A model generated the notes under the pieces. That model did not search any database, was not told where the DNA came from, and saw only the letters and a list, made by a program, of their open reading frames with translations. The translations under genes and the position numbers were made by a program. Source: an uncultured Eubacterium sp. (lineage in GTDB: Bacteria > Bacillota > Clostridia > Lachnospirales > Lachnospiraceae). From it: a stretch of 38,874 bases of DNA. This document shows positions 1 to 33,989 of the stretch, piece after piece. The stretch covers positions 1 to 38,874 of the forward strand of contig CANDJC010000033.1 in the NCBI GenBank assembly GCA_947384955.1. Reading direction: 5' to 3'. Numbering within the stretch: the stretch's first letter is position 1; each line of letters begins with the position of its first letter.

Positions 1-55
1 GGAGCCGCCGCAGGAAGACCTGGCAAATCCCCTCTCCCGGCGTCCGCGCAGCCAT
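1..55 (-). CDS. Possible start of a further gene of the operon (partial)
   Basis: On the minus strand an ATG at 53-55 follows a purine-rich AGGAAGGGG site by about five bases, downstream of the kinase stop at 111. The open frame runs off the window edge after about 18 codons and begins MAARTPGEGI. The short stretch is not recognisable as any family. The position suggests the GNB/LNB operon may continue to the left. Only the start signal supports it. Confidence 0.3.
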   Translation of the reverse strand, partial: MAARTPGEGICQVFLRRL

Positions 56-110
56 AACATCCCCTTCCTGAACCGCCTGTTTTCATTCGCATATCCAGCA
101 TACAGCTTCC

Positions 111-1226: not shown

Positions 1227-2161
1227 GATTCATCACCCCATAGCTTTTCCGGATAAAGTCCTGACTGCTTCATAGCGCGGACCGCATGTTCCACAGCCGG
1301 CTTATCTTCCCTGTAAGTCACGCCGTACCATTTGTCCGCGGTTGTCAGTACCGCCACCGCGGCTTTCTGCTCATGCAGCAGGCTGCTGACGACCGCTGGG
1401 AGAAAATATTCGCACTTTAGCGGATTCTCCTTTAAGCCTTTTTCCAGAAATGCTGCAAACCCCTTTTCAATTTCTCCTAAAAATCCAGCTGTAAATCCCC
1501 ACATATTCATAGAAACAATCGCACCCGAAGGAAGCTCCGTCCAGGAAGCCCCGTCGTCTTCCGTATAGGCTATCGTACGCTCTTTTTTATTGATGCATTC
1601 GATTCGGGTCCGTTCCGTCACGCTTGCCAGCTCACCGTGCGCATCCACTTCGCAGATGCCGCGGGCGACATGACCGTTTTCTGTCAATGTATTTTCCAGA
1701 CGGTAGCCGACCATGGCATAACGGTATTTTTCATCGTCTTCATGGTTATAAAGATAGTCATAAATTTTTGCAAACGCTTCTGCGCCGTAATAATCATCCG
1801 CGTTAATCACCGCGAAAGGCCCGTCAATCTCGTCCCTGCAGCTTAAGACCGCATGAGCCGTCCCCCATGGCCTGATACGGTCTTTCGGGACTTCAAATCC
1901 CTGCGGAATATCATGCAGGTCCTGATATACATATGCCACATCCATGACCTTCGCAATGCGCCCGCCGACGGCTTCCCTGAAATCTTTTTCGTTTTCTTTT
2001 TTGATAATAAATATGACCTTTTCAAAACCCGCTCTTTTCGCGTCAAAAATCGAAAAATCCATAATGATATGGCCCTGTTCATCGACCGGGTCAATCTGTT
2101 TTAATCCGCCATACCGGCTGCCCATTCCGGCTGCCATAATTACCAGCACTGGTTTCTTCAT
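1223..2161 (-). CDS. Sugar-1-phosphate nucleotidyltransferase of the GNB/LNB operon
   Basis: A GT-A fold nucleotidyltransferase. The N-terminal signature MAAGMGSRYGGLKQID holds the glycine-rich NTP loop and the downstream lysine, and a metal-binding DD occurs in VINADDYYG. I chose the internal ATG at 2161 because AAGGAAGGGG lies about five bases before it; a longer frame starting at 2194 lacks such a site. The likely reaction joins a hexose- or HexNAc-1-phosphate to UTP, releasing pyrophosphate. Sitting between the phosphorylase and the kinase, it probably activates HexNAc-1-P or Gal-1-P to a UDP-sugar. Bifidobacteria use a GalT-type uridylyltransferase at this step, so this is a different enzyme class. 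The exact sugar cannot be read from sequence. Confidence 0.8.
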   Translation of the reverse strand: MKKPVLVIMAAGMGSRYGGLKQIDPVDEQGHIIMDFSIFDAKRAGFEKVIFIIKKENEKDFREAVGGRIAKVMDVAYVYQDLHDIPQGFEVPKDRIRPWGTAHAVLSCRDEIDGPFAVINADDYYGAEAFAKIYDYLYNHEDDEKYRYAMVGYRLENTLTENGHVARGICEVDAHGELASVTERTRIECINKKERTIAYTEDDGASWTELPSGAIVSMNMWGFTAGFLGEIEKGFAAFLEKGLKENPLKCEYFLPAVVSSLLHEQKAAVAVLTTADKWYGVTYREDKPAVEHAVRAMKQSGLYPEKLWGDES

Positions 2162-2196
2162 TCTGCCCCTTCCTTTCTGATAAAATTCAGCCATTT

Positions 2197-4413: not shown

Positions 4414-4424
4414 TGTCTGCTCCT

Positions 4425-4631
4425 CTATGTTTTCTTTTTACGCGGTCTTTCAAAAGGTTTGTTATAAATCCAAAGTGCGATAACCAAAAGACCTGTTCCT
4501 GCCATCATCATGCCAAGTCCTGAAAGCCTGCCCGTAGAACGCCAGCCGGTTATTACAGCAGCAAGCCCTGCCACAGCCAGAACTGCCATCAGTATGATTC
4601 TCAATGTTACATGTTCTTTCCAAAATTCCAT
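4425..4631 (-). CDS. Small two-helix membrane protein in the GNB/LNB operon
   Basis: A 68-residue protein with two predicted transmembrane helices (about 10-30 and 37-56) and a strongly basic end, PFERPRKKKT. AAAGGAG lies eight bases before the ATG. The gene is 11 bases upstream of the phosphorylase and 24 bases downstream of the second permease gene, so it is surely cotranscribed. It may belong to a short uncharacterised Clostridia family seen beside such transporters (I recall DUF6903, not verified). Its small size and position suggest an accessory of the transporter or a membrane tether, but no function can be assigned. Confidence 0.75.
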   Translation of the reverse strand: MEFWKEHVTLRIILMAVLAVAGLAAVITGWRSTGRLSGLGMMMAGTGLLVIALWIYNKPFERPRKKKT

Positions 4632-4655
4632 ACTTCTGTCTCCTTTCCCTGCTGA

Positions 4656-5543
4656 CTAGCCCTTCAGTCCGCCTGCCATCCCCTGAGTCAGCTTGCTCTG
4701 TACACAGATATACAGAATCAGCGTAGGAAGCATGACAATTACAAGGCCCGCATACATAATGCCGTACTGTGCCGCCGACTGCTGCGCCTGCATTAAATTC
4801 AGCAGTCCTACCGGCAGCGTCTTTGGCCCTTTTGCAGAACTCATCAGCGTCATAGAAATGATGTATTCATTCCAAAAAGATAAAAAGTTAAATAAAATCA
4901 CCGTAATAATCGAAGGCTTCGCCATTGGAAAAATGATTTTCCACATCGCTGTCATATAGCCCGCGCCGTCGATATAAGCCGCTTCCTCATAGTCGTGCGC
5001 CAGCGTCTGAAAATACCCGGACAGCAGATAAATCGTAAACGGCAGCGCAGTGGATGCATAGACCACCGCAAGCACCACCAGGTTATTTAAAAGAAATCCC
5101 TGCCCGAGTATCTTTTTCAGCCATATATCGCCGTCCCTTAACATCAGAAAAATCGGCACTACGATATAGTTTACATTGATAAACAGCCCTGCCATAAACA
5201 GAGTGTTTAAAAATTTAGACCCCTTAAACCGGAATCTGGCCAGACAGTAGGCAGCAGGCAGCGCCACAATCAGCAGCAGGACAAGTGCCAGTGCCGTGAC
5301 TATAACAGAATTTAACATATAGTCGCCCATCTTCGCCGCATTCCAGGCATCCACAAAGTTCTGCCAGTAAAATCCTTTCGGCAGCGTCCATGGATTCCCA
5401 TAAAATTCACTGTTCTGCTTAATAGATGCCAGAAACACCCATGCCACCGGCACAAGAATGGTAACCGTGAGCATCAGCAGCACAAAATATATAAAAAATT
5501 TATAGATACGCTCTGTCGAATCTGTATGCTTTGCTTTTTTCAT
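4656..5543 (-). CDS. Carbohydrate ABC transporter permease, MalG type
   Basis: An inner-membrane subunit with six predicted helices in 295 residues. The cytoplasmic EAA loop that docks the ATPase reads EEAAYIDGAGYMTAMWKII near residue 190. The C-terminus, SKLTQGMAGGLKG, is the usual MalG-type end. GGAGGGA lies close before the ATG. It pairs with the MalF-type permease 18 bases upstream and with the lipoprotein at the head of the operon, and likely imports galacto-N-biose or lacto-N-biose. No ATPase gene is present nearby, which is common for Firmicute sugar importers that share one MsmK/UgpC-type ATPase encoded elsewhere. Confidence 0.92.
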   Translation of the reverse strand: MKKAKHTDSTERIYKFFIYFVLLMLTVTILVPVAWVFLASIKQNSEFYGNPWTLPKGFYWQNFVDAWNAAKMGDYMLNSVIVTALALVLLLIVALPAAYCLARFRFKGSKFLNTLFMAGLFINVNYIVVPIFLMLRDGDIWLKKILGQGFLLNNLVVLAVVYASTALPFTIYLLSGYFQTLAHDYEEAAYIDGAGYMTAMWKIIFPMAKPSIITVILFNFLSFWNEYIISMTLMSSAKGPKTLPVGLLNLMQAQQSAAQYGIMYAGLVIVMLPTLILYICVQSKLTQGMAGGLKG

Positions 5544-5561
5544 ATCCGTCCCTCCTATCTC

Positions 5562-6446
5562 TTAAAATTCCAGCGGTTCACGGTCTGTCACCTTATTTAC
5601 CATTGCCGATAATGCAAAGGAGAATAAAAAGATGATAACGCCGATTGCCATACTGTAGCCGTACAGTCCGGCGTCTTTCTGGCTGTACATATAGCTGAGC
5701 GCTACTTCCGAAGCGCCGTTCGGGCCGCCGGATGTCATTGCTTTTACAAAAAGGAACGTCATATTAATGGTTGAAATGATAAAAAATGTCAGTGTGGTGC
5801 GGATATTCGTCCAAATGAGCGGGATTGTAATCTGAAAAAACTGTGTCAGCCTTCCTGCGCCGTCCAGACTGGAGCTTTCATAAAGGCTGTCCGGCACGCT
5901 CGACATCGAAGCCATGTACATGACCATATAGTAGCCGACCGCCTGCCAGACCATGGCGATAATCAGACTGACCATGACCAGAGATTCGCTTTTCCACAAA
6001 ATCGGGTCCTTCATATCGCGAAACAGGCCGATGATACTGTTGAGCATCCCGTTTTCCGGTTTGTAAATCGCAGAAAAGATACCTGAAATTACTACAATAG
6101 ACAAAATATTCGGGATATAGAATACAACCCGGAAGAAATTCTGCCCTTTTATTTTTTCCCTTGTCAGAATCGCGGCAAATACCAGAGCAAATACAAAGGT
6201 GATAATAGTAACTGTGACAATCAGCAAAATCATATTCTGCATGGAGCGGATAAAATTGCTGTCATTCAAAAGAACCTGAAAATTTTTCAAACCCACAAAT
6301 GTTTCTGTCGGCGAATACGCACCTTTTTCATACAAAGACATGCGGAATACATTCAGGGTCGGCAGTATCATAAAAATAAAAAACAAAATGACTGCCGGTG
6401 CAACGCATACAGCTAAAAACCCGTTTCGTCTTTTCGAACTTTTCAT
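5562..6446 (-). CDS. Carbohydrate ABC transporter permease, MalF type
   Basis: A 294-residue inner-membrane permease with six predicted helices. Its EAA loop is YESSSLDGAGRLTQFFQIT around residues 188-206. It should form a heterodimer with the MalG-type permease encoded 18 bases downstream. GGAAAGGAAAG precedes the ATG. It is separated from the binding-protein gene by a 68-base gap holding a strong stem-loop, so permease expression may be set below that of the binding protein. The substrate is inferred from the phosphorylase in the same operon, not from the permease sequence. Confidence 0.92.
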   Translation of the reverse strand: MKSSKRRNGFLAVCVAPAVILFFIFMILPTLNVFRMSLYEKGAYSPTETFVGLKNFQVLLNDSNFIRSMQNMILLIVTVTIITFVFALVFAAILTREKIKGQNFFRVVFYIPNILSIVVISGIFSAIYKPENGMLNSIIGLFRDMKDPILWKSESLVMVSLIIAMVWQAVGYYMVMYMASMSSVPDSLYESSSLDGAGRLTQFFQITIPLIWTNIRTTLTFFIISTINMTFLFVKAMTSGGPNGASEVALSYMYSQKDAGLYGYSMAIGVIIFLFSFALSAMVNKVTDREPLEF

Positions 6447-6476
6447 GCCTTTCTTTCCTTTCCAATAATGAAACTG

Positions 6477-6503
6477 CGGCGGGCAGAGTCCTCCTGCCCG
6501 CCG
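6477..6503 (-). promoter_or_regulatory. Stem-loop between binding-protein and permease genes
   Basis: CGGCGGGCAG (6477-6486) pairs perfectly over ten bases with CTGCCCGCCG (6494-6503) around a seven-base loop, just after the binding-protein stop. The following minus-strand sequence is only moderately T-rich, so it is a poor full terminator. In other ABC operons such hairpins stabilise the abundant binding-protein mRNA or cause partial termination; that role is inferred here. Confidence 0.75.
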
Positions 6504-6514
6504 TTTGTAAAAAG

Positions 6515-7960
6515 TTATTTCAGATTTTCACGCATCTGATCGCTTGCGGAAATCACGCTCTTTATCCAGTCATCCTCTGTCATATCGCCGGATACCAGAG
6601 AATTGACAGGGTCTAAGAAGACCGTACGCACTTCCACGCCAGGAATGGCATCAAAGGCTGCAAAATTACCCATAGCCGGTTTTACGCCGTTTTCATAAAT
6701 CGAGTAAAACATCACATTATCGCCTTCGAGTTTGTCAGCAATATTCACTACAGGCTGAACTGCCCCGCTCTTAGCAAAAATATCGCAGGCTTTATCGCTG
6801 TATAAGAATGCCGTAAATACTTTTGCCGCATCCTGGTTCTCAGCGCCCTGCGGAATCCATGCCTGCTCAAACCATGTATAGCTGTAGCAGTCTTCGCCGC
6901 TCTTTACTGCCGGAAGCGCCGTCATTCCCCACTGGAATCCTTCTTCACGCGGAGCCTCAGCCATTTCGCCGACAATCCATGTGCCGTTCGGCATGAAAAT
7001 CGCTTTGTTGTCAAGCACTAACTGCTGATTCTGCGTAAAGTCCTGATCATTTGCCTGTGCCGGCGTAATCGGATTGGTATAAGAAGCTAATTTAGCAATA
7101 ATATCAAAACAGGTTTTTGCTTCCGGAGTCTCCCAGATGCCTTCCTCATAATGAGTCGCCTTATCAAAGAATTCCGGGCCGCCTGCGGAATACATCAGCG
7201 CGTAAAAGAAAGTATCAAAGTAGCCTGCCGTCGGATAGGTAAACAGGTAAATATCTTCTTCTTTCGCCTTGTCTCCAAGCTCCCACATCTCATCCCATGT
7301 CTTAGGAACTTCCCATCCTTTTGCCTCTAAAAGCCCTGCATTATAAAACAGTCCGCAAGGGGAATAGAACATCGGCGCTAAAAATGTCTTGCCGTCGCCG
7401 TATGGATTTGTAAGAGAAGTATCGGTAAATCCTTCCGCAATCTTATCGGATACCTTCGCTGTCTCGCCCGGCACGGTCATAGACAGCACATCTGTAATGT
7501 CCAGAATCATATTATCTTTAATAAACTGCTCGGTCAGCCCTGCCTCGCGTCCGGTTGCTAAATGAATCACATCCGGGTAGTCGCCTCCCTGCATGGACGG
7601 CCCGATAACATCTTCCAGATTTTTGTCGGTTGTAAGCTCTACTTCAATCCCCGTTTCAGCCGTAAATGCCTCAGCAACTTCCTTCCACATATCTGAGCCA
7701 TATGCGGTTTCAATCGCGGCTACACTGATTGTAGTCCCTGCAAAATCTGCATAAGGGTCATCCGATGCGTCCGCCCCGTCTTCCCCTTCCTCTGCGGATG
7801 TGCCCGCATCATCCGGTGTCTCTTCCCCGGCAGACGAGTCTTCATCCGAAGCCGGAGCATCATCGCCGCCTTCCGCCGGCCCAGGCTCTGACCCGCAGCC
7901 TGCAAAAAGAGCTGCCATCATGCTAACACTTAAGATTGTGCACAAAATTTTCTTTTTCAT
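6515..7960 (-). CDS. Extracellular solute-binding lipoprotein for GNB/LNB-type sugars
   Basis: A 481-residue ABC binding protein of the ExtL/MalE type. Residues 1-21 form a lipoprotein signal and the lipobox LFAGC places the lipidated cysteine at 22. A long acidic Asp/Glu/Ser/Ala linker (about 23-68) follows, then the two-lobed sugar-binding domain, which includes YSPCGLFYNAGLLEAKGWEVP. It would sit on the outer face of the membrane and deliver sugar to the two permeases downstream. GGGAGG lies eight bases before the ATG. As first gene of the operon it is closest to the AraC-controlled promoter. Galacto-N-biose/lacto-N-biose specificity is inferred from the phosphorylase and kinase in the operon; other HexNAc-containing sugars remain possible. 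Confidence 0.9.
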   Translation of the reverse strand: MKKKILCTILSVSMMAALFAGCGSEPGPAEGGDDAPASDEDSSAGEETPDDAGTSAEEGEDGADASDDPYADFAGTTISVAAIETAYGSDMWKEVAEAFTAETGIEVELTTDKNLEDVIGPSMQGGDYPDVIHLATGREAGLTEQFIKDNMILDITDVLSMTVPGETAKVSDKIAEGFTDTSLTNPYGDGKTFLAPMFYSPCGLFYNAGLLEAKGWEVPKTWDEMWELGDKAKEEDIYLFTYPTAGYFDTFFYALMYSAGGPEFFDKATHYEEGIWETPEAKTCFDIIAKLASYTNPITPAQANDQDFTQNQQLVLDNKAIFMPNGTWIVGEMAEAPREEGFQWGMTALPAVKSGEDCYSYTWFEQAWIPQGAENQDAAKVFTAFLYSDKACDIFAKSGAVQPVVNIADKLEGDNVMFYSIYENGVKPAMGNFAAFDAIPGVEVRTVFLDPVNSLVSGDMTEDDWIKSVISASDQMRENLK

Positions 7961-15684: not shown

Positions 15685-17526
15685 TTAAACTGGTATACTG
15701 TCCCGCAAGCACAGCACCCCATGACCAATCTGTTGATTCGGATATTCTGAAAACGCCGCCAGCGGCCTCGCCCCCTTAATTAAATACGCCTTCACCTTCT
15801 CCCCATACAAATACGGGTCATTCCCTTCCACAATCCCCCACTGCATCAGCAGCGCCGCGCTCCCCGTCACAAACGGCGCTGCCATCGACGTCCCGCTCTT
15901 CACTCCATACCCTCCCCCTGGCACCGCGGACATAATTCCAACCCCGGGTGCTGCAAGGTCTGGTTTAATCTGGTTTGTCATCCGCGTATAGCCTCTTCCC
16001 GAAAATTCTGCCGCCTGATTTGTCCTGGAATTGTAAGCGGCTACGGAAATCACCTTTTCGGCTGTGGAAGGAATCGTAAGCGTTGTATGCTCCGTCGGGT
16101 ACAAAAACCCCGTGCCCCGGTTTAAGATGCCTCCGCCAGGCAGCCACATATCAAATTCTCCGTTTACAATCCGTTCCGGCAGCAGACGAATTTCCCAGAC
16201 ACCGCTGTCTATAAAGTCCCGCACGGGCAGCAGCTCCAGGAAAATTTCCTGATAAACGCTGTAAGGGCTCGGTTCCCCGTAATAAAGAAGAATTTCTGTC
16301 TGCTGCATCCGAAAGCGCTGCGGCCCTAGTATCTTTTGAACCGGTCCTGTCGTGATGCCTGACGGGTGGACAATCTGAATGCTGAATTCATCAGAATAAG
16401 ATTTCCAGATTTGAATGCTCAAAGATGTTTCATATGTGCTTACCGCAAACTGTACGGCATTTTCAAATCCCCCTTCCATGCTGACCCGCCCGGATGTATG
16501 AACGCTTGCTGTTCCTTCATTTCCCGTTCCGGCTGCTATCACGTTTTTCCAATAGCCGCTTAAGCTGTTTAGATATGTTTCGATTAAAGAGACTCCGCTG
16601 TGAGAGCCGTAATTATTGCCAAAGCTTAAGTTAAGTGCCAGCGGAAGACTGAGCTTTCTGGCCTTTCGTACCATATAATCAACCGCCAGCATAAGCTCCA
16701 CCGTGCTTGGAAAGCCTTCTTCCCTCGGCACGCCCAGTTTTACAGCAATCAGCTCGCTCTCATAAGCAACTCCGCGGTAACGCCCGCCGGATGCCCTCCC
16801 GTTGCCGGCCATAATGCCGGCTACATGCGTCCCGTGGCCGCTGCTGTCTCCTGTCAGCCTCACGTAAGACTGCTGACTTTCCGCTGTCTGCTGGCTCCGC
16901 ACCCTCATACAGGTGTGCCGGGGTCCTCCTTCCTCAATAAAAACCGGACCGGACGGCTCTTTCAGCGCTTCGTTAATCTGCTCTCTTGTAAATTCAACGC
17001 CCCTGTCATATCCGTCTGGAGGAAGAAGGCCGCGGGAAGCATCCGGTATCAGTGTCTGGTCCCAGATTGCCGCAATACGCGTCGTTCCGTCCGGATTGCA
17101 GAAGTCTGGATGGCGCCAGTCAATCCCGCTGTCTGCTAACCCGCACAGGATTCCCTTCCCGCTCAGGTTTTGGGCCAGAGTCTGCCCGGTACGAATACAA
17201 GAGGCTCTGATTCCCTGGTCAACAGCGAAAAAGAGCCTCTTTGGTTTTTCTATATATTCAATTTCCGTGCGGTCTGTAAACATCTGCATCAGTTCCCCGG
17301 GCAGTGTCACAACGGCGTATCCGTTTAACAGTTCCACAATTGTAATCTGCGGATATTCCTCACGCAGCTGATTCAGTCCTGCAGAATAACGGACAATCAG
17401 CTCCCATGTATCCTGCATCCGGTTATATCCCGTATCTAAGTCCAGTGATTTTTCCAGTTCACGCTCTGTCGCATCCAGTGCAAGATTTAAAAGATTTTCA
17501 CGTTTCGGGTTTGTGCTTTCCGGCAT
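15685..17526 (-). CDS. Subtilisin-family (S8) serine peptidase, probably cytoplasmic or spore-associated
   Basis: A 613-residue S8 peptidase with an intact triad: D132 in LADSGIDWRHPDF, H231 in SGHGTHVAGIMAG and S547 in SGTSMAAPFVTG. The oxyanion asparagine is probably in AAGTGNEG (about 331-338). A beta-rich insertion of roughly 150 residues lies between the H and S segments, as in the clostridial Csp germination proteases. There is no signal peptide, and residues 1-100 resemble a prodomain. The ribosome site is weak (AGCAGGTG). It stands alone, oriented like its neighbours. A Csp-like role in spore germination is possible, but such S8 proteins are multicopy in Lachnospiraceae and their substrates are mostly unknown. 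Confidence 0.88.
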   Translation of the reverse strand: MPESTNPKRENLLNLALDATERELEKSLDLDTGYNRMQDTWELIVRYSAGLNQLREEYPQITIVELLNGYAVVTLPGELMQMFTDRTEIEYIEKPKRLFFAVDQGIRASCIRTGQTLAQNLSGKGILCGLADSGIDWRHPDFCNPDGTTRIAAIWDQTLIPDASRGLLPPDGYDRGVEFTREQINEALKEPSGPVFIEEGGPRHTCMRVRSQQTAESQQSYVRLTGDSSGHGTHVAGIMAGNGRASGGRYRGVAYESELIAVKLGVPREEGFPSTVELMLAVDYMVRKARKLSLPLALNLSFGNNYGSHSGVSLIETYLNSLSGYWKNVIAAGTGNEGTASVHTSGRVSMEGGFENAVQFAVSTYETSLSIQIWKSYSDEFSIQIVHPSGITTGPVQKILGPQRFRMQQTEILLYYGEPSPYSVYQEIFLELLPVRDFIDSGVWEIRLLPERIVNGEFDMWLPGGGILNRGTGFLYPTEHTTLTIPSTAEKVISVAAYNSRTNQAAEFSGRGYTRMTNQIKPDLAAPGVGIMSAVPGGGYGVKSGTSMAAPFVTGSAALLMQWGIVEGNDPYLYGEKVKAYLIKGARPLAAFSEYPNQQIGHGVLCLRDSIPV

Positions 17527-22646: not shown

Positions 22647-24111
22647 CACCCGTTTACAACTTTTTACAAAAATTAAATACAAACCCATCTTTTCATAGTA
22701 TAATTTAAGCGACTAACCAAAAATCATACGAAAGAAGATGCGTTTGTATTTACCGCTTATTATACATGAAAAATTCCATCTTGGACAGACTGAAAAATTA
22801 TTTTAATGAATATTTTTCGGACGCAACGAAACCCACTGCCAGAAACCTGTTTCTTATTGTTGTTTCCATACTGGCGCTGGACATTTTCCGTTCTGTGCGT
22901 TTTGCCCACAGGCATGTGCTTTCAAAACTGTCAAACACATCACTGAATGCGTATTACTATGCGCTTAAAACTGGCAGGCTGGATCATGAATCGTGGAGGG
23001 ACGTGACATTATCCAAAGCTTTGAAGGTAATTCCCAGCCGGCTGGATGCCCAGCCTCTGTTCCTTTCCATTGACGATACAATGGTTGAAAAGGAAGGTGA
23101 AAAATTCGAACTCCGCTCAAGACTCTTTGACCATGCGGCACATAACGGATCTAATTACCTGAACGGGCACTGCATGGTAAGCATCCTGCTGTCATTCCCG
23201 GTTTTAGCGGACGGTTTCATACGTTATCTGTCCATCCCGCTTGGATACCGGATCTGGGATAAAAAGCAGACAAAGCTGGAAATCGCCGCTGAAATGGTGC
23301 GCCATGCTGTGGACAGCATCGGTCCAGACAGGCAGGTGTTCCTGCTCTGCGACAGCTGGTATCCAAAAGGATGTGTTGCAGGCCTTGTGGGCGAATTCCA
23401 AAATCTTGACATCATATGTAATGCAAGGATAGATACCGTCATGTATGACCTTCCGCCGGGACGCACAGGAAAACGGGGCCGCCCAAAGAAATATGACGAA
23501 TGCCTGTCGCCGGAGGATTTTGAACTGGAATCCCCAAAAACCGGAGACTGTAAGATCGGCGTGCGCCCGGTTCTGACCAGGCTCTGGGGAGAGCGGGTAG
23601 TTTATGCCGTTGTCACGCTCCCGAAAAGCGGGAATGGAAGCCACAGGCTTTTCTTCTGCACAAAAAACCCGGAAAGCATCATCATAGACTACAGCAGCTG
23701 CGAAGATGAAACAATCCGCAGCTATGGGAAAGAAAATGAAAAGTTCCTCCCAGTCGCCTGTTATTCGCCGCGCTGGAACATTGAAGTATCGTACTATGAA
23801 AGCAAGACTTTCTGGTCACTGGAAGAATACTGCGTACGCAGCCGTGAAGGCATCGAACGTCTTAAACCTGGAGTGCATCGCTTACAGTGCCATGACGCTG
23901 CTTCCATACAGTGATGGATCCTTTTCACGCTACCAGTCTGCGAGCGCACAGGAAACCCGTTTAGGCATTGGGCAGCAGATTCAAGCCAGCATAATATTTA
24001 GCAGTTTCGCAGAATCCCTCGAAACTGTAAAAAAAGCGCGGCCATTTATTAAAATAATAGAGAGCTACGTTTTATCAGGGTTCAAAAAAATCCAAAAGTT
24101 GTAAACTGGTG
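22647..24111 (+). mobile_element. Insertion sequence with DDE transposase (IS4/IS701-like)
   Basis: The imperfect terminal inverted repeats are CACCCGTTTACAACTTTTT (22647-22665) and, on the opposite strand, CACCAGTTTACAACTTTTG (24093-24111), matching at 17 of 19 positions. They enclose a single transposase gene read from left to right. The element is about 1.47 kb. I could not identify a clear target duplication, so the exact ends may differ by one or two bases. It lies between the FIST promoter region and the 3' end of the glycan locus. The family is judged from the transposase only. Confidence 0.75.
22766..24104 (+). pseudogene. DDE transposase, frameshifted near its end
   Basis: The first frame encodes 382 residues with FLSIDDTMVEK (first Asp), FLLCDSWYP (second Asp) and WNIEVSYYESKTFW (probable Glu). 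It then ends in an unrelated tail after GIERLKPGV. The second frame continues the expected C-terminus, NLECIAYSAMTLLPYS, to a stop at 24104. The switch lies at CGTCTTAAACCTGG near 23862-23872; removing one A would give GIERLNLECIAY. The full product would be about 445 residues. It is probably an inactive copy, although +1 recoding or a base-call error cannot be excluded. The fold resembles IS4/IS701-type transposases. Confidence 0.75.
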
Positions 24112-24573: not shown

Positions 24574-25686
24574 TCAGCATACAATATCTCTGCACCACTT
24601 CCACGGCAGTTTTGAAATACCTGCAGCCAGAAGCAAGCTGATTACATAGATTCCCACACACGGAAATACCGAAGTCTGTATCTGTACCCAGGAATCACTT
24701 GCCACCTTCATCCATGCTAAGCCCACAGCATAATGAATACAGTAAATCCCCTGTGTATATCCTGCTATCCGTACAGCTGCTTTGGATAATAATCCAGAAA
24801 CTGTCTTTACAGGCATATCATAGCATAAAATAGCAAGGAGAAGCACCGCCAGTATCTGAACCGGAATCCCGTAACCAAAATGTTTTGGCTGAAAATACAT
24901 TTCCAGTTCATGGAATACATAAAAAAGCCACAAGAGTTCAAATATGCAGACTGCGTATATATAAACCCAAAAGCAGCCCGCTGCGGCTTTCATTTTATGA
25001 AAATTTACATGTGACAGAGCCATTCCGGCTGCTGCAGACGGCAGCAGTTCCGCCAGTCTTCCAAGAGGATAACACATTTCATATGGAAAATAAGCAAAAA
25101 TATCATAATTACAGCCGCTGTATACAGATACAGCGGCTCCTGCCGTAATACATATCAGCACAGCTGCTGCTGTCTTTTTCTGAAACAAAGCAAACATTCC
25201 GGTAAATAAAACTGTCAGAACCATCATAACCCAGTTAAAGTACATAACAGCTTCTAACGGCGTGTGCCCCATAAGAAACTGAAAGCCCAGTTCCTTCAAA
25301 CCATAGCATATCCGCCTTTTAAAAACAACAGACGACACATTATAAACCCAGAACATTATAAGCGGCCAGATAAGATACGGCTTCAGCAGCCGGAACATCC
25401 GCTTCTGCAGCTTTTTGAAACTGCCGCATTCTATGCTTTCTGCTGAAAAATAGAATGCCAGCAGAACAAAGCCATGCACAGCACATGACCTGGCAGAATC
25501 CAGCATCTCATAAAACCCGCTGCTCCTGTCATTTACCCAGAAGTGACACAGAACAACACAAAAACTAAAAAATACTCTTAAAACATCAAATCCTGCAATC
25601 CGTCCTGCCCCCCCCCCCCGCATGCCTTTATCCAGTTCCCTTTTCATACTCCTCTCAGTCATTCCAGATAATTCGTCTTTCTTCAT
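24574..25686 (-). CDS. Membrane acyltransferase (acyltransferase 3 family), phase-variable
   Basis: A 370-residue integral membrane protein with about ten helices. Its first helix region, AGFDVLRVFFSFCVVLCHFW, holds the acyltransferase-3 R...H motif. Such enzymes add acetyl or other short acyl groups to surface sugars. Codons 23-26 are formed by a run of 12 G that encodes Gly-Gly-Gly. At 12 bases the frame is open; 11 or 13 would give a stop within about 15 codons. GAGAGG lies about 11 bases before the ATG. It is the last gene of the glycan locus, adjacent to the IS. The expected role is acylation of the fucosylated glycan. Confidence 0.85.
   Translation of the reverse strand: MKKDELSGMTERSMKRELDKGMRGGGAGRIAGFDVLRVFFSFCVVLCHFWVNDRSSGFYEMLDSARSCAVHGFVLLAFYFSAESIECGSFKKLQKRMFRLLKPYLIWPLIMFWVYNVSSVVFKRRICYGLKELGFQFLMGHTPLEAVMYFNWVMMVLTVLFTGMFALFQKKTAAAVLICITAGAAVSVYSGCNYDIFAYFPYEMCYPLGRLAELLPSAAAGMALSHVNFHKMKAAAGCFWVYIYAVCIFELLWLFYVFHELEMYFQPKHFGYGIPVQILAVLLLAILCYDMPVKTVSGLLSKAAVRIAGYTQGIYCIHYAVGLAWMKVASDSWVQIQTSVFPCVGIYVISLLLAAGISKLPWKWCRDIVC
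25608..25619. repeat. Homopolymer tract (12 C; 12 G on coding strand) in the acyltransferase gene
   Basis: Twelve uninterrupted C, read as G on the coding strand, near the 5' end of the gene. The frame is open as sequenced. Its length and position fit an on/off slipped-strand switch. Confidence 0.85.
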
Positions 25687-25712
25687 GATTCTTAATACCT
25701 CTCAGATTCTCT

Positions 25713-26066
25713 TCACGCCGCATCATCATATTTTAAAGCCTTTTCTGCTACTCCCCCCCCCGCGTATTCACCGCTCCGTTCCTGAGTATTATGAAAAACT
25801 GCTTCATTTCTCACCAGAGCCATTTCAAAATCCCTCCGGTCTTTTGCCCGCAGATTTTCCAGTATCAGTCCGGCAAAAAAAGACTGTATAGATGCAATCA
25901 GCGCAAAGCCGCAGACAATCAGTGTCGGAAAGCGTTCCACAAAACCCGTAAGCAGAAACTCCTCGAATACCGGCAGAAAGAAACCGAGAGCAGCCAGCGC
26001 AAGCAGCAGTGCTATTATGCCAAAAAATGCAAACGGCTTATAATTGCGAAACATCTTTATTATCAT
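25713..26066 (-). CDS. Membrane tail of a GT2 (DPM1/GtrB-like) glycosyltransferase, N-terminal domain missing
   Basis: The 117 residues match the C-terminal membrane part of polyprenyl-phosphate glycosyltransferases. Two helices (about 13-31 and 46-66) surround TGFVERFPTLIV, and LILENLRAKDRRDFEMAL follows. The catalytic GT-A domain, normally about 220 residues, is absent. The start overlaps the preceding gene (ATGA), so it may still be translated. A nine-G tract encodes Gly-Gly-Gly near residues 103-105; other lengths change only the last few residues. It could be a remnant of a deletion or a stand-alone membrane partner. Confidence 0.6.
   Translation of the reverse strand: MIIKMFRNYKPFAFFGIIALLLALAALGFFLPVFEEFLLTGFVERFPTLIVCGFALIASIQSFFAGLILENLRAKDRRDFEMALVRNEAVFHNTQERSGEYAGGGVAEKALKYDDAA
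25753..25761. repeat. Nine-C tract (G on coding strand) in the GT2-tail gene
   Basis: Nine uninterrupted C, encoding Gly-Gly-Gly in the sequenced frame. Eight G would give a stop (GAG TAG) at once; ten would give a stop after about eight codons. Confidence 0.8.
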
Positions 26067-26467
26067 GCAGATAACCCGGATTCCGTCTGTGTATAAAAAA
26101 TCAGATTTGAGTCCATAACCAGAGGAGCAGTCAGAATAAAAACAGCTGCCAGTATCAGGCCGGCTATATTTTTCATTCTGCCTTCTTTCGAAAATTTCGA
26201 AATCTCTAATCTATCGAATGACGGAAGATACAGGCTCAGCAAAAAAATCTGTAAAGCCCGGTACAGAGTTCTTTCTCTGTAAACTCCGCCGCTCAGCCTG
26301 CACCACAAAAACTCTGTCAGCTGCCGCATAAATCCGAACGGAAATAAAAACAGAGATGATAAAATAAATGCCATCGGAATCATCCGTCCTGCTTTTTCTT
26401 TAAAAATCAGAACCATAATTCCTGTCATATTCAAAATAAAAATCAAAGGTCCAAAAAATTCTGCCAT
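26063..26467 (-). CDS. Small polytopic membrane protein of unknown function
   Basis: A 134-residue protein with about three or four helices (near 3-20, 30-50 and 102-120). It contains FMRQLTEFLWCRLSGGVYRER in a loop. I used the ATG at 26467 because ATGGAGGGC lies about five bases upstream; the frame extends to 26491. It overlaps the GT2-tail start by four bases and follows a methyltransferase gene. It is not recognised as a family. It may be a truncated glycosyltransferase or polymerase, since its neighbours are truncated, or a genuine small partner of the GT2 tail. Confidence 0.5.
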   Translation of the reverse strand: MAEFFGPLIFILNMTGIMVLIFKEKAGRMIPMAFILSSLFLFPFGFMRQLTEFLWCRLSGGVYRERTLYRALQIFLLSLYLPSFDRLEISKFSKEGRMKNIAGLILAAVFILTAPLVMDSNLIFYTQTESGLSA

Positions 26468-26505
26468 ACTGCCCTCCATAAATACCGCCATCTGCTGCCA
26501 CGGTC

Positions 26506-27060
26506 TTATGATATTAGATGCTTTCTTTTCACAGCCACAACATTCAGGCTCATCAGACGCCCATGCTCAAAATCCATATGCGGCAGATATGCTCTGCTGC
26601 AGTCATCATACCCCCCCCCGGGAAGAAACTGCTCCCAGTCATATCTTTTTACATCAGAAAAGCCATTGTCTGTAAGCTTATCTTTTAAATATTTAAAATC
26701 AAATGCTTCATAATGATAATTATAATCATAGTCCTGCCCGCCATACAGTAATCCCATCAGCCCGGCCAGATTATGATGCTTTGCGTATTCCTGCACAACA
26801 GCTTCAAAATCCGGCACTGCTATCCGAAGAATCCCGCCTGTTTTTAAGACCCGGTTCCATTCTCTTAATGCGGCATCTGACTTCCATCTGCCAAAATGTT
26901 CCAGAAGATGGCAGGCGTAAATCTCTTCCGCAGTTTCATCTTCAAACTGTGATAAATCTTCTGCACGCCCAACAAAATCAATATGGTCATCTATCTTACG
27001 AATATCATAATGTTTATATCCTACCAGATATCTCTGCCCGCATCCAATATGTAATTTCAT
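26506..27060 (-). CDS. SAM-dependent methyltransferase, phase-variable
   Basis: A 184-residue class I methyltransferase. It has [18 protein letters not shown] (SAM-binding motif I region), CHLLEHFGRW (motif IV area) and LREWNRVLKTGGILRIAVPDF. A run of nine G encodes Gly-Gly-Gly in EQFLPGGGYDDCS near residue 150, so a one-base change would alter the last 35 residues. The start overlaps the fcl stop (ATGA). Likely O-methylation of a sugar in the glycan, possibly fucose; the acceptor cannot be read. The length is short, yet no essential motif is missing. Confidence 0.8.
   Translation of the reverse strand: MKLHIGCGQRYLVGYKHYDIRKIDDHIDFVGRAEDLSQFEDETAEEIYACHLLEHFGRWKSDAALREWNRVLKTGGILRIAVPDFEAVVQEYAKHHNLAGLMGLLYGGQDYDYNYHYEAFDFKYLKDKLTDNGFSDVKRYDWEQFLPGGGYDDCSRAYLPHMDFEHGRLMSLNVVAVKRKHLIS
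26611..26619. repeat. Nine-C tract (G on coding strand) in the first methyltransferase gene
   Basis: Nine uninterrupted C, encoding Pro-Gly-Gly-Gly with the flanking base in the sequenced frame. Confidence 0.8.
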
Positions 27061-28028
27061 TCTTTGTCTTCTCCCATCGTCTGCTCATATCTGAAATTTT
27101 TGAGAAAGTCCTGATAGGCAAGCCACAGTCCCTGCCTGAGTTCTGTCTGATACGTCCATCCAAGTGCAGCGGCTTTGCTTACATCCAGCAGCTTTCTCGG
27201 TGTTCCGTTCGGCTGTTTTTCATCCCAGCGTATTTCCCCGGTATACCCGGTTATTTCTGCTATCAGCTTCGCCAGATTCCGTATTGTGATTTCTTTTCCC
27301 GTTCCGGCATTCACAGTTTCACTGCCGCTGTAATGATTCATCAAAAATACACACAGCTGCGCCAGGTCATCCGCATACAGAAATTCCCGCAGCGGAGTGC
27401 CGTCTCCCCAGCATGTCACAAAAGCCAGCTCCTGCATCTTTGCTTCATGAAATTTTCGAATCAGAGCCGGAACGACGTGGGCATTAAGCGGATGGTAATT
27501 ATCATTTAATCCGTATAAATTTGTGGGCATTACAGAAATAAAATCTGCGCCATACTGCCGGTTTAAAAACTCACAGTATTTTAAGCCAGAAATCTTAGCC
27601 AGGGCGTAGGCTTCGTTTGTTTTTTCCAGTTCGGATGTCAGAAGGCAGGACTCTTTCATCGGCTGTGGCGCCATTCGCGGGTAAATACAGGAGGAGCCGA
27701 GAAATTCCAGTTTCCGGCAGCCGCACTTCCATGCAGAATGTATGACATTCATTTCCATCATCATATTCTCATACATAAAATCAGCCAGGGCATTCTGATT
27801 CGCTGCTATTCCTCCGACTTTTGCAGCCGCCATAAACACATACTCCGGCCGTTCTTTTTCGAAAAATGCTTCTGTATCTTCCTGCCTGCATAAATCCAGT
27901 TCCCGATGTGTTTTTGTAATAATATTCCAGTATCCCTGTCTTTTCAGTTCGCGTACAATAGCAGAACCTGCCATGCCGGTATGGCCGGCAGCATATATCT
28001 TCGCTTCCTTGTGCATCATATCCCGCAT
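27057..28028 (-). CDS. fcl: GDP-L-fucose synthase
   Basis: A 323-residue short-chain dehydrogenase that epimerises and reduces GDP-4-keto-6-deoxymannose to GDP-L-fucose with NADPH. The cofactor loop is [14 protein letters not shown], the catalytic serine is in LGSSCIYP, and Tyr/Lys are in [13 protein letters not shown]-type substrate features are followed by [11 protein letters not shown], a Fcl hallmark. AAGGAG precedes the ATG by four to five bases. It overlaps the gmd 3' end and the methyltransferase start, so the three are translated as a block. It is the second and last step from GDP-mannose. Confidence 0.93.
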
Positions 28029-29071
28029 CGTGCTCCTTTTGCCTTCGCCTCTTCTTTTGCCAGCTTCCAGTCATGCTCTGTCATTTTTAAAACCAGTTCC
28101 TCATAACTTGTCCGCTGCGGATTCCATCCAAGTACAGCCTTCGCTTTCGCCGGGCTGCCCCACAAATCCACAACGTCCGTAGGCCTGTATAATTCTCTGC
28201 TGACTTCAATTACCGTTCTTCCGTCCGCTTTGTTTATCCCTTTTTCATCCATGCCGGTATTGCGCCATTCAATGTCAATGCCTGCATAATGAAATGCCAG
28301 CTCTGCAAATTCTCTGACGGTATGCTGTACACCCGTTGCTATTACAAAATCTTCGGGCTTTTCGTGCTGCAGCATCAGCCACATGCATTCTACGTAATCA
28401 CCCGCATATCCCCAGTCTCTTTTCGAATCCAGATTTCCAAGATACAGTTTCTCCTGCAGTCCGCATGCAATCCGTCCTGCCGCAAGTGTAATCTTCCTTG
28501 TCACAAAATGTTCGCCCCGCCGCTCGCTTTCGTGATTAAATAAAATCCCATTTACTGCAAACATGCCATACGCTTCCCGGTATTCCCTGACAATCCAGTA
28601 ACCATACTGCTTTGCCACTGCATACGGAGAATACGGGTGAAACGGAGTCTGCTCGTTTTGCGGCACTTCCTGAACACGTCCGTACAGTTCGGATGTCGAT
28701 GCCTGATAAATACGGCAGTCAGAAAGCCCGAGCATTCTTACCGCCTCAAGAATTCTTAAAACTCCTAACGCTGCCACATCCGTACAGTATTCCGGCGCTT
28801 CAAAGCTCACCGCGACATGGCTCTGTGCGCCCAGATTATAAATCTCATCCGGCCTGCACTCTGCCAGAATCCGTACAACAGAGGAAGAATCCGTTAAATC
28901 CCCGTAATGCAGCTTTATTTTGTTTTCCGCAGTCAGATGGTCAATACGCACCGTATTCGAAACAGATACCCTCCTTAATACTCCATGCACTTCATAACCT
29001 TTTTTCAGTAAAAATTCAGCCAGATAAGAGCCATCCTGTCCGGTGATTCCAGTTATTAACGCCTTTTTCAT
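28016..29071 (-). CDS. gmd: GDP-mannose 4,6-dehydratase
   Basis: A 351-residue dehydratase that converts GDP-mannose to GDP-4-keto-6-deoxymannose. The NAD-binding loop [28 protein letters not shown] and the catalytic STSELYG...YAVAKQYG are classical. The fold continues through [14 protein letters not shown], characteristic of GMD. I used the second ATG (29071), which has AGGAAAGG seven bases upstream; a first ATG at 29077 is adjacent to the site. It feeds fcl directly downstream to give GDP-L-fucose, the donor for the fucosyltransferases of this locus. Confidence 0.94.
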
Positions 29072-29088
29072 TTCCATTCCTTTCCTGT

Positions 29089-29853
29089 TTACTTTTTAAC
29101 AGCAAGTATAAAATCTCCGCCCCGCAGCAATTCTGCACTTCCCGTATCCTTTTTCTGCAGCCGTACCAAAAAACGGTAAAACAGATAAATCCTGACTTTC
29201 GAAAACAGCCCTAAATCCAGCGCGCAGTATTTTCTGGACACTTCAGGAATTCTCAGACAGTTTAACGCAAGACTTTCAAAAAAATCCCCGTTCCACTCCT
29301 CTGATTCGATACGGCAGCCATATTTTTCCAAAACAAACTGATACCAGTACCGGTTAAATCCTGTACAGAAATGATACGGTGCAAAATGTGTCATAGACGC
29401 AAACGGGGCTGTCAGCAGCAATTTACCCCCCCCCGGTCTTAATACTCTTACCAGCTCCTTTACCGCTGCCTGCGGGTCTTTGACATGTTCGAGCACTTCG
29501 GTGCACATCACAATATCAAACTCGCCGTCCTGAAACGGCATATCCGTAATATCACATCTTACATCAATTCCCTGTGTATTCCATGACTCGGTCTGCAGGC
29601 CGTGCCCGTCACCGGCACCGTCATATTCGCCAAAATCCTGTGATACATACTTAAGATGCCTGCAGTATCTTTGATAGCGTCTTTCACCGGCACCTGCGTC
29701 TAAAATCTTTTGGCCCGGCTCCATCGATTTTAACTTTGCCGCAATCCATCTATGCCTTCTGTTTTCATATACTTCTCCTGAAGCTTTCTGAAACAGGCAG
29801 GCGCGCATTTTTCTTCTCACCCTGCTTTTCCACAAAAACCTTTTTTCTCCCAT
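29089..29853 (-). CDS. SAM-dependent methyltransferase, phase-variable
   Basis: A 254-residue class I methyltransferase of the type 11 group. Motif I is [15 protein letters not shown], the acidic motif follows, [17 protein letters not shown] is motif IV, and [17 protein letters not shown] is the post-motif. The nine-G tract encodes the Gly-Gly-Gly of this conserved LRPGG segment, near residue 142, so a slip would truncate the protein in its fold. It probably methylates a sugar or lipid intermediate. GAAGGG lies about eight bases before the ATG. It sits between gmd and the flippase gene. Confidence 0.85.
29426..29434. repeat. Nine-C tract (G on coding strand) in the second methyltransferase gene
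   Basis: Nine uninterrupted C within the codons for the LRPGGG motif. This conserved PGG motif may have been the seed from which the run grew. Confidence 0.85.
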
Positions 29854-29873: not shown

Positions 29874-31604
29874 TTACCGCTCTTTTATCAGTTTTCCATT
29901 TTCTGCCCGGTATACCATATCGCATTCTTCTATTGTAGACAGACGGTGCGCAATCATAATCATGGTCTTTTTTCCATGCAGTGCATGAATGGACTGCATA
30001 ATCGCCTCCTCTGTTTCATAATCCAGAGCAGATGTCGCCTCATCAAATACAAGAACATCCGGATTCCGAAACAGAGCCCTTGCTATTCCTATCCGCTGTC
30101 TCTGCCCGCCGGAAAGCCGGATGCCCCGCTCTCCTGTCATCGTATTAAGCCCCTGCGGCAGACTCTTGACAAAATCGGCAAGCTGTGCCTCTTTCAGAGC
30201 TTCCCAGACTGCTTTTTCTGTATCGGCGCCTCTGTCACAGCCGAAGACGATATTCTCGCGTATCGTATCATCCAGCATAAAAATCATCTGGGGAATATAG
30301 CCAATGCAGGAAAGCCAGCCATACATATTTTGAAAGATATCAGTTCCGTCTGCCAGCACGCTTCCGCTCTGAGGCTTTAAAAGTCCGAGCAGAATATCCG
30401 CAGCCGTCGTCTTGCCTGCGCCGGAAGCTCCGATAATCCCGGCCGAGCTGCCCGCCGGAATCGTCATGCCGGCTTGTTCGAATATCTGTTTCTCTCCTCC
30501 GGGATAGGTATAACTGATTCCTTCCAGCCTGATTTCATGTACTGCCGGCAGCCTGCGTGCATTTCTGTTTCCAATATCAGCCTTTTCTTCGTCAAGCACG
30601 CTGATGTTTTGTAACATATTATCAAGTGCGGGTTCGTAAAAAACTGCCTGCGTCATGCCGGCCGTCATCCGGTTTGCGGACGGCAGAAGCTTCACGGCCG
30701 CCATAACAAATGCCGACAATGAAGGAATAAGTGATTCCATTTCATATCCTGCCGCTATCATAATTCCAAATACAGTCATCATAGAACAGACCGAGACCAG
30801 TTCAATCAGATTTCTTGGAATTGTCTGCAGCGTGCTGTTCCAGCGGGAAGCATCTGCCATGCGTTTTCCATATTTCATAAAATTTTTAAGAAAAAACGCT
30901 TCTGTCTGCGTAACCTTTACTTCTTTGATTCCAGAAATGGCCTGAAGCAGCCATTTATTCGTTTCGGCATATGTTTTCTGATACGCTTCCCCTTCTCTTT
31001 TCAGAAGCGGACGAAATACTCTTAAGATAACTGCCATCAAAAGCAGCAGCGCTGCTGCCACAAAAGCGGTCATAAAAGGATTGATAATGAAAACAGTAAG
31101 CACCACGGCAAATGTCACTGCTGCCTCAGTGACAAAATTCAGTATGACCGTAAGCATGTCAAACGCATTACGGGCATCTTCCTGTACAACCCTTATAATT
31201 TCCCCCGACTGCGCTGACAGAAAAGATTCATACGGCCTGCTCAGATACGCTTCTAAAAGCTTTGACTGCGTGAAAAAACGATGATTACTTACAAACCGGT
31301 ACTGAACATAATACTCAAATGTAAGATATACTGCTTTTATGATATAGATAAGAATCAGTGCCGCGATACACCAGATTACAAATTCCATGTGGCTTTCGAT
31401 ATGAAATATCCGGCATATCCAGTTACACAATTCATTTTCTGTTATAATATCTGAATTCATAACAGCTGTCACTAACGGAAGCATCATAGAAACTCCAAGC
31501 GCCTCAAAACAGGCTCCTATCAGCATCATAAAAAATAAAATAAGTACCCGCTTTTTCTGGTGCACATTTAACAGTCTGTAAAATTTTTTAAATACACGTA
31601 TCAT
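29874..31604 (-). CDS. ABC transporter, lipid-linked glycan flippase type
   Basis: A 576-residue half transporter: an N-terminal six-helix domain and a C-terminal ATPase domain. The ATPase has Walker A GASGAGKTTAADIL, signature LSGGQRQRIGIARAL, Walker B VLVFDEATSALD and the switch histidine in MIAHRL. In a glycan locus such PglK/MsbA-like exporters flip undecaprenyl-linked oligosaccharides. The start at 31604 (ATG) is preferred over a GTG 15 bases earlier; GGTGG lies about 11 bases upstream. It stands between the damaged glycosyltransferases and the methyltransferases. No Wzx or Wzy is in the window, so this is probably the only visible export route. Confidence 0.88.
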   Translation of the reverse strand: MIRVFKKFYRLLNVHQKKRVLILFFMMLIGACFEALGVSMMLPLVTAVMNSDIITENELCNWICRIFHIESHMEFVIWCIAALILIYIIKAVYLTFEYYVQYRFVSNHRFFTQSKLLEAYLSRPYESFLSAQSGEIIRVVQEDARNAFDMLTVILNFVTEAAVTFAVVLTVFIINPFMTAFVAAALLLLMAVILRVFRPLLKREGEAYQKTYAETNKWLLQAISGIKEVKVTQTEAFFLKNFMKYGKRMADASRWNSTLQTIPRNLIELVSVCSMMTVFGIMIAAGYEMESLIPSLSAFVMAAVKLLPSANRMTAGMTQAVFYEPALDNMLQNISVLDEEKADIGNRNARRLPAVHEIRLEGISYTYPGGEKQIFEQAGMTIPAGSSAGIIGASGAGKTTAADILLGLLKPQSGSVLADGTDIFQNMYGWLSCIGYIPQMIFMLDDTIRENIVFGCDRGADTEKAVWEALKEAQLADFVKSLPQGLNTMTGERGIRLSGGQRQRIGIARALFRNPDVLVFDEATSALDYETEEAIMQSIHALHGKKTMIMIAHRLSTIEECDMVYRAENGKLIKER

Positions 31605-31644
31605 AAAATCGCAATCCACCTATCATATGCAAGACTCGCATATC

Positions 31645-32288: not shown

Positions 32289-33121
32289 TTAAACCGCAGT
32301 CCACCCGTCACATGCCGGGCTGTGTACAGGAGATTTGTTATCCCATCTTTTGGGACAGATAACCGTTTTATTTTTATCTGCGTTCAGCCATGCGCCCCAC
32401 CAGCTGAATGTACTGTTTGCAATGATATGATGCCTGCAATGGCTCATCAGGCACATATCGTACCAGTCCTCATAATTTTCATACTGGTTCGGCAGGACAT
32501 ATTCTGCATTCGGCAGCTTTAGATTTTCTCTGACCCACAGAATATCATCACTAAAAACAAGAAATTTTGCCAGCGGATATCTGTCTGTCATGATTCCGAC
32601 AGCTTTTCGGTAATATGCTTCATCACAGATACCGCCATAAATATCCGGCAGCTTTAGGTAGTCTTTCCTTCTGATATGTAAGCTGATATAGAAGCCATTC
32701 TCTATTTTGCGGATATGATTCTGCAAGCGCTTTTCTCCATAAGGGAACTGGAACTCTTTGCGAATCTGCCTTTTTATGTCCTGAAAATAAAATTCATTTT
32801 GAAAATAGCCTGTCAGCAGTCCCCTGTCCAGCTGGAATACTTTTTCGTCATACGGCAGGTTCCTGTCTTCTGTATAGCTTAACTGTCTCCGTCTGCAGAT
32901 TTTACGAAACACTCCCATTGCAAGATAATAAGGATAGTTCCGAAAGCCCTTAAACTTTTTTAGTCTGACATTGGGAAACTTTTCAATCGCATAAATACCT
33001 GCATTCGGAATGAAATACGAATTATCCAGTCTGACATGTTTTCCCTTTCTGAGCAGGGAACGGTAACAGGCATATTCAAACATCTGGTTTCCAAGACCGC
33101 CTTTTAGCTGAAGTACATCAT
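32289..33121 (-). pseudogene. GT11 alpha-1,2-fucosyltransferase, frameshifted right after its start codon
   Basis: The GT11 family is clear from LKGGLGNQMFEYACYRSL, HIRRKDY (donor site) and IIANSTFSWWGAWLN. AAGGAAGG lies seven bases before an ATG at 33119-33121, but that frame ends after five codons. The conserved sequence is open in another frame, VLQLKGGLGNQ, whose upstream codons have no ATG, GTG or TTG before the stop codon of the preceding gene. Adding one base after the first ATG would give an MIVLQLKGGLGNQ-type start, as in intact GT11 enzymes. The first usable internal ATG (33083) would lose the GGLGNQ motif. A base-call error or rare ATA start is possible. Confidence 0.75.
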
Positions 33122-33125
33122 GTAT

Positions 33126-33989
33126 TCACCTTCCTTTTCTCAGACGCCGGTATAATACATAAACAGGCATTGCATACAGCCAGATAAAAATTTTTACACT
33201 GCTTTTTCTGTCTAACTTCTTCCAGTCCAGAGGGATTCTGCTTAGAGCATCCTGTATCATCTTAAGTTTTGTTTTATCTCTGCCATTTTGATACACCAGA
33301 TATTCCAGTTCCAGCAATGACAGCCAGTAATATTTGCTTATATTGCAATACCCCGCATACCTTTTAATCGTCTGTATCTGTTCATATGTTACACAAATGT
33401 AGTCCTTCACATGTTTCTCAGTCAGCCTTTGTTCCGTTATGCTGTCATTTCTCTGGCGATAGCTGTACAAAATACCAGGCTCCGTCGCAATACGTAAATC
33501 TTTCAGCAAAAACCTGGTCAGAAAATTAACATCTTCATAATAGAGTCCCTCTTCAAAAAACAGTCCACGCAAATCCTTACGCCTATACATAAATTTCCAG
33601 ACAGAATATGAAAAACGCGCTTTCCCGTTCAATATATAACGAAGCATCTTCTTTCCAGAATAGATTCCTTTTTTCTCTTTCACTACATGAAGAATCTGTC
33701 CGTCATCACAAACCTCCCTGTAACCGCACATGCAGGCATCACAGGCATCTTTTAGAATCCTGTCAAGCATTGCCTCACAGGCATTTCTCCTCAGCCAGTC
33801 GTCACTGTCTGCAAAAAGAATATATTCTCCTGTAGAAATTTCCAGCCCTGCATTTCTCGCACTCCCTAATCCTGCGTTCTGTTTGTGGACTACGCGAATT
33901 CGTGCATCTTTACCGGCCCATTTATCACACATGGTTCCAGACAAATCAGAAGAACCGTCATCTACTAAAATAGCAGTTTTTTTGTTCCG
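33126..33989 (-). pseudogene. GT2 glycosyltransferase lacking its N-terminus
   Basis: The ATG-initiated frame (from 33944) begins SGTMCDKWAGKDARIRVV, already inside the GT2 domain. The codons before it still encode TAILVDDGSSDL, the nucleotide-binding strand, so about the first 30 residues (the usual PVYN segment) have been lost, with the break near 33990. GLGSARNAGLE and FADSDDWL follow; the C-terminal region is complete to about residue 272. Upstream of the break no start codon with a ribosome site is seen. The stop is five bases from the GT11 start. It probably added an upstream sugar of the glycan before truncation. Confidence 0.7.

Follow-up and report, generated by a model that had tools for sequence, protein, structure and literature searches.

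The window, which is the whole 38,874-base stretch analysed here, comes from an uncultured Eubacterium sp. of the Lachnospiraceae (contig CANDJC010000033.1; its genome is called G000 below) and carries a glycan cluster with four poly-G tracts inside its genes. A run scan of the whole window returned exactly four C/G runs of at least six bases, each of them C on the plus strand and G on the coding minus strand. Their coordinates and translation confirm the reading of a first-pass annotation made from the letters alone: tracts of 12, 9, 9 and 9 G on the coding strand, all in frame and each encoding Gly-Gly-Gly. The absence of any further G or C run of eight or more in the 38.9 kb is confirmed too, and extends down to runs of six. 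The tracts and the genes that hold them are listed here, with open reading frame abbreviated as ORF and amino acids as aa.

24574..25686, minus strand: acyltransferase of 370 aa, Acyl_transf_3 (PF01757), from a Pfam match
25608..25619, minus strand: tract 1, G12, codons 23-27 of the acyltransferase gene, immediately upstream of the Acyl_transf_3 domain (domain match from residue 31)
25713..26066, minus strand: membrane ORF of 117 aa, resembling the C-terminal membrane tail of a family-2 glycosyltransferase, from a reading of the sequence
25753..25761, minus strand: tract 2, G9, close to the C-terminus of the 117-aa membrane ORF
26506..27060, minus strand: smaller S-adenosylmethionine (SAM) methyltransferase of 184 aa, Methyltransf_11, from a Pfam match
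26611..26619, minus strand: tract 3, G9 with TA on its 3' side, codons 148-150 of the smaller methyltransferase
29089..29853, minus strand: larger SAM methyltransferase of 254 aa, Methyltransf_11, from a Pfam match
29426..29434, minus strand: tract 4, G9 with TA on its 3' side, at a PGG motif, codons 140-143 of the larger methyltransferase

The consequences of a slip were computed for each gene. Gain or loss of one base cuts the acyltransferase from 370 to 33 or 35 aa and the larger methyltransferase from 254 to 143 or 146 aa, in agreement with the truncation foreseen for these two proteins. The smaller methyltransferase goes from 184 to 151 or 168 aa with its C-terminus replaced. The 117-aa ORF becomes 105 or 113 aa long, with its final residues alone altered; the four switches could therefore give at most 8 combinations and not the 16 that had been suggested. 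Tract 2 probably does not act as a switch. Its host has no Pfam match, and the glycosyltransferase label is a sequence reading without family support; a stretch of the same-genus genome G005, 46% identical to the tract 2 region, has G11 at the matching position, which there is the end of a longer ORF. The remaining three tracts are credible candidate switches. Their genes, the acyltransferase and both methyltransferases, are in the intact, ON state in the assembly. A solved-structure search with the larger methyltransferase returned remote methyltransferases only.

The tracts are far from unique in their genome. A scan of G000 found 116 G runs of at least nine bases, together with 533 overlapping G8 words. 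Across 400 kb of this genome, G/C runs of 4, 5, 6, 7, 8, 9, 10, 11 and 18 bases number 798, 141, 14, 2, 2, 9, 2, 1 and 1, a bimodal distribution with a peak at nine, and one order-2 Markov simulation produced no run above 8. At G000's own density, 0.89 runs of at least nine would be expected in the window; finding at least four has a Poisson P of 0.013, a post hoc value, as the window was chosen for its tracts.

Twelve further genomes of the genus hold 7, 63, 93, 16, 64, 47, 37, 97, 3, 34, 15 and 4 such runs, so that the 13 genus genomes have 596 in total, 3 to 116 each. The counts range from 0 to 8 in 12 genomes from other genera of the family and from 0 to 19 in 16 genomes from other families of the order. 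A sample of 200 family genomes, which includes two from this genus, contains 76 without any run of at least nine and seven that reach 20 or more: G173 (126), G000 (116), G088 (33), G134 (31), G057 (26), G223 (23) and G200 (20). G173, at 1.6 Mb and 68% complete, belongs to another genus. The poly-G trait is thus strong in the genus of the window organism and recurs in a few other genera.

For placement within genes, 100 of the 116 runs of G000 were listed and the surroundings of 86 analysed, the other 14, near contig starts, being left out. Tracts less than 300 bases from the end of an analysed stretch (14 of 89) were set aside, leaving 75 internal tracts. Fifty-seven of these 75 are exactly G9. 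The coding strand carries G in 62 and C in 4, and is undecided in 9. Stretches of G005 and G008 were chosen from their listed runs, clusters first, and those of further genus members around methyltransferase matches.

Reading frames were compared across each tract with codon scores for both sides, trained per genome, using G4-G5 runs as control (these may include duplicates where analysed stretches overlap). The frame is broken at 12 of 48 tracts versus 119 of 1492 control runs in G000 (P 4e-4), at 18 of 31 versus 33 of 521 in G005 (P 1e-12) and at 9 of 19 versus 53 of 827 in G008 (P 2e-6). Outside the genus, G134 has breaks at 4 of 4 tracts and at 12 of 215 control runs. When a single codon table was applied to 187 tracts, 72 were scored ON and 45 OFF, and 70 were not scorable on both sides. 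Tract length follows this state: 66 of the 72 ON tracts are G9, and the 45 OFF tracts comprise 24 of the 30 that were scored with another length and 21 with G9.

Homologous sites in sister species differ in both length and state. In the larger methyltransferase, the window has G9 and an intact frame, as does the G008 homologue; the translated G009 homologue has G8, a stop soon after the tract and the remainder of the gene in another frame. A second methyltransferase, with 75-76% identity on the two sides of the tract, has G9 and an intact frame in G005 versus G8 and a broken one in G007, and a membrane protein of the same two genomes is G10 and broken in G005 versus G9 and intact in G007 (76-78% identity). 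In a more distant pair (41-44%), whose tracts are offset by a few residues, the G000 gene has G9 and an unbroken frame, the G002 gene G10 and a broken one. Among the other pairs, one is broken in both genomes (G11 in G005, G8 in G003) and one intact in both, with G10 and G9 in G005 and G003, respectively. Tract-free homologues also occur in the comparison. The relative of the smaller methyltransferase in G001 (63% identity) is without the window's tract but carries G8-TA, in frame, where a different Gly-Gly pair is encoded, and it looks as if selection favours a tract within the gene rather than at one site. For the acyltransferase, the sole relative in the genus, at 30% identity (in G007), has no counterpart of the tract. 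Viral-contig relatives of the dehydratase next to the tract genes and named-genome relatives of the larger methyltransferase were distant and were excluded from the tract comparison.

The idea that the tract entered the larger methyltransferase as a 9-base insertion was considered and is not supported: two tract-free homologues have other codons at the site, and their length is that of the tract-bearing G008 copy (a difference of 0) and differs from the window's by 3 bases.

Pfam scans of tract-bearing gene pieces (those below 90 bases dropped, as were 3 of 78 G005 and G008 references, one a duplicate and two very long) were compared with 80 control ORFs drawn from 249 tract-free ORFs of G000. 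The 71 pieces of G000 include 8 Methyltransf_11, 4 FkbM, 4 Glycos_transf_1 and 4 Acyl_transf_3 matches; the 75 pieces of G005 and G008 include 14 Methyltransf_11, 3 polysaccharide pyruvyl transferase and 3 Acyl_transf_3 matches; the controls include 2 Methyltransf_11 and 2 Glycos_transf_2. Methyltransf_11 is thus found in 22 of 146 tract pieces versus 2 of 80 controls (P 0.002; 8 of 71, P 0.03, for G000 alone), although such counts are rough because one broken gene yields two pieces. By these Pfam labels, methyltransferases and acyltransferases are over-represented among tract genes, which fits glycan decoration.

Altogether, we consider it very probable that the tracts are contingency switches and that slipped-strand phase variation of poly-G explains them best. 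The four tracts of the window would then belong to a large poly-G phasome, a reading drawn from the type of tract and from the states seen between species. The multi-gene phase variation proposed by the first-pass annotation is well supported by the between-species comparison; it is not a feature of the glycan locus alone, as the tracts extend over the genome and the genus. During replication, a tract would gain or lose one base, and the change of length would break the reading frame (OFF) or restore it (ON), so that cells of one clone could differ in the glycan-decorating enzymes they produce. Applied to the window, this would place the acyltransferase and both methyltransferases, as enzymes of glycan decoration, under switch control. 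What we observe is the tracts, an excess of them over chance, their coding placement, the excess of frame breaks and the differing lengths and states in sister species; from this we infer reversible switching within a strain and its effect on the glycan.

Several results weigh against this explanation. Outside the genus, G173 (breaks at 2 of 23 tracts, 5 of 223 control runs) and G024 (1 of 4, 4 of 58) show no difference from control. Of the scored G9 tracts, 66 of 87 are ON, above the one third expected under free drift, and the automatic ON/OFF call itself errs: the tract at L264:10468 was called OFF yet is in frame, and the call at L284:4515 is doubtful. Unchanged homologous pairs exist, several being G9 and ON in both genomes. 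No length variation was seen within one species, and two tract-flank scans of viral contigs gave no match. An excess of glycosyltransferases among tract genes is not apparent against the 80 controls. Finally, MutS1 and MutL are present in G000, and mismatch repair usually lowers slippage rates. The two proteins score above cut-off in G000 and in 12 of the 13 genus genomes; G009, the sole genus genome without a full match to MutS1 or MutL, has the fewest runs (3), and a gap in the draft may explain the missing match. With both proteins present in G000, loss of mismatch repair does not account for the tracts.

Runs also lie outside genes: a dispersed repeat has a G-rich leader that accounts for 19 of the 86 sampled runs of at least nine in G000, as might be expected if a neutral mutation bias let the genus accumulate poly-G runs without any use as switches. 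Such a bias leaves unexplained the coding-strand skew of 62 to 4, the excess of methyltransferases, the bimodal lengths and the tract that a relative of one of these genes carries at a different site, and we regard it as improbable. That the runs are artefacts of sequencing or assembly, from two-colour poly-G tails or consensus errors, has in its favour that G000 is a draft of 271 contigs in which 28 of the 100 listed runs are less than 300 bases from a contig end (14 analysed, 14 not); this is extremely improbable given that the tracts of the window are internal, with the reading frame maintained across them, that other genomes have tracts at corresponding sites and that a genome in 6 contigs has 16 runs. 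For the analysed contig-end runs, the idea of two-colour artefacts was withdrawn because many of them sit in the G-rich leader of the repeat. A recoding mechanism, in which transcriptional or ribosomal slippage would draw mixed products from a fixed length of DNA, is made conceivable by the slippage of long A or T homopolymers in transcription, as described in passages of PMC3711429. We hold it to be highly improbable here: tract length in the DNA differs between homologues and tracks the ON/OFF state.

The dispersed repeat is palindromic and about 300 bases long. It was seen at L221:3075-3385 (plus strand), at other G000 loci and at the left end of the window (about 1-90, minus strand), with 45 copies in about 0.8 Mb of G000, a biased sample, 2 in G003 and 1 in G005. 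One copy has a fold z of -12 and no Rfam match; several contigs end in or near it.

In the base context of the tracts, one feature stands out. TA lies directly 3' of 244 of the 596 genus runs of at least nine, versus 35 for the mirrored 5' flank, and follows 5-8% of G3-G5 runs. Among the ON tracts of three genomes it occurs in all codon phases (8 of 14 in phase 0, then 13 of 22 and 16 of 19). Grouped by scoring, TA is found after 76 of 117 tracts with an ON or OFF call, 17 of 48 with a single scored side and 5 of 22 with none. In other genera, TA flanks for example 16 of 23 runs in G223, 15 of 20 in G200 and 20 of 31 in G134; it is less common in G111 (3 of 15) and G044 (2 of 13). In the window it is present after tracts 3 and 4 and absent after tracts 1 and 2. 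A role as a stop-codon device in the shifted frame is not supported: of 29 TA-flanked ON tracts in phases 1 and 2, 16 would read TAA or TAG and 13 TAT, a split close to our estimate from base composition, and phase-0 tracts are flanked by TA as well.

The 3' asymmetry of TA, its occurrence in every phase and its recurrence in other genera would also suit G8-9-TA being a sequence-specific site for some factor, with slippage secondary. Homologous tracts without TA (the larger methyltransferase homologues of G008 and G009) speak against this, as does the lack of any wider motif around the tracts; no candidate factor is known, and no search was aimed at one. We find this very improbable. A combined proposal also strikes us as doubtful, if less so: G8-9-TA could be the family's DNA-level switch module, placed in Gly codons of glycan genes in any phase, where TA would set or limit slippage, maybe by way of a protein recognising it, and would let a bacterium with mismatch repair run a phasome of Campylobacter size.

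Around the window's putative poly-G switches, the following genes of the cluster have no tract.

27057..28028, minus strand: NAD-dependent epimerase, GDP-fucose-synthase-like (the fucose label being inferred), from Pfam
28016..29077, minus strand: GDP-mannose 4,6-dehydratase, from Pfam
29874..31619, minus strand: ATP-binding cassette (ABC) transporter, from Pfam and a solved-structure sequence search
32289..33083, minus strand: glycosyltransferase family 11, from Pfam
33126..33944, minus strand: glycosyltransferase family 2, from Pfam

The best solved relative of the ABC transporter is the flippase PglK (5c73; residues 11-580, nearly the full length, E 3e-86, top of 579 matches to solved structures), with other ABC exporters scoring nearly equal. 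The decorated glycan would probably contain fucose and be built by the adjoining GDP-mannose dehydratase, the family 11 and family 2 glycosyltransferases and the PglK-like flippase. A transposase-like DDE gene adjoins the cluster on the opposite strand (22766-23914, plus strand). Elsewhere in the window, genes for lacto-N-biose phosphorylase, an APH-family kinase, a nucleotidyl transferase and an ABC importer (111-7960, minus strand) look like a set for host-glycan use, and a subtilase with a CspB prodomain (15685-17526, minus strand) presumably resembles spore germination proteases.

Poly-G phase variation is best known from pathogens, among them Campylobacter, Helicobacter and Neisseria. Neisseria has phase-variable G/C tracts in glycan genes with mismatch repair present; the genus studied here is likewise proposed to switch surface genes by repeat length, in a different lineage and, in our comparison, for poly-G only. 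The lineage differs from Campylobacter as well, as the CspB-type protease and the lacto-N-biose phosphorylase gene of the window illustrate. To our knowledge, MutS1 and MutL are absent in Campylobacter, unlike here. Counts of the TA 3' flank cover the tracts described here. According to the PhasomeIt survey (PMC6321876), Campylobacter strains have 5-81 phase-variable genes each, and tract length peaks at 9, with 53%. By that account the two phasomes share G tracts that are mostly intragenic with G on the coding strand, a peak at nine, frameshift ON/OFF states and tens of tracts per genome, and the G9 peak is sharper in G000 (57 of 75). Within the Clostridia, Clostridioides difficile varies phase with invertible promoters through site-specific inversion, according to passages of PMC11868660; tract slippage is proposed here. 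A literature search over titles and the starts of abstracts, with passages of PMC6437147, PMC11868660 and PMC3711429 and with subscription papers mostly outside its reach, returned no poly-G phase variation in Lachnospiraceae, Firmicutes or Clostridia.

Here, a whole genus has up to about 100 tracts per genome, many of them in glycan-type modifying enzymes, in the presence of mismatch-repair genes. If switching is confirmed, it raises the question of how slippage stays useful beside mismatch repair, and of the role of the TA flank. Random surface diversity would then belong to the ordinary biology of these bacteria and bear on phage resistance, antibody recognition and strain tracking.

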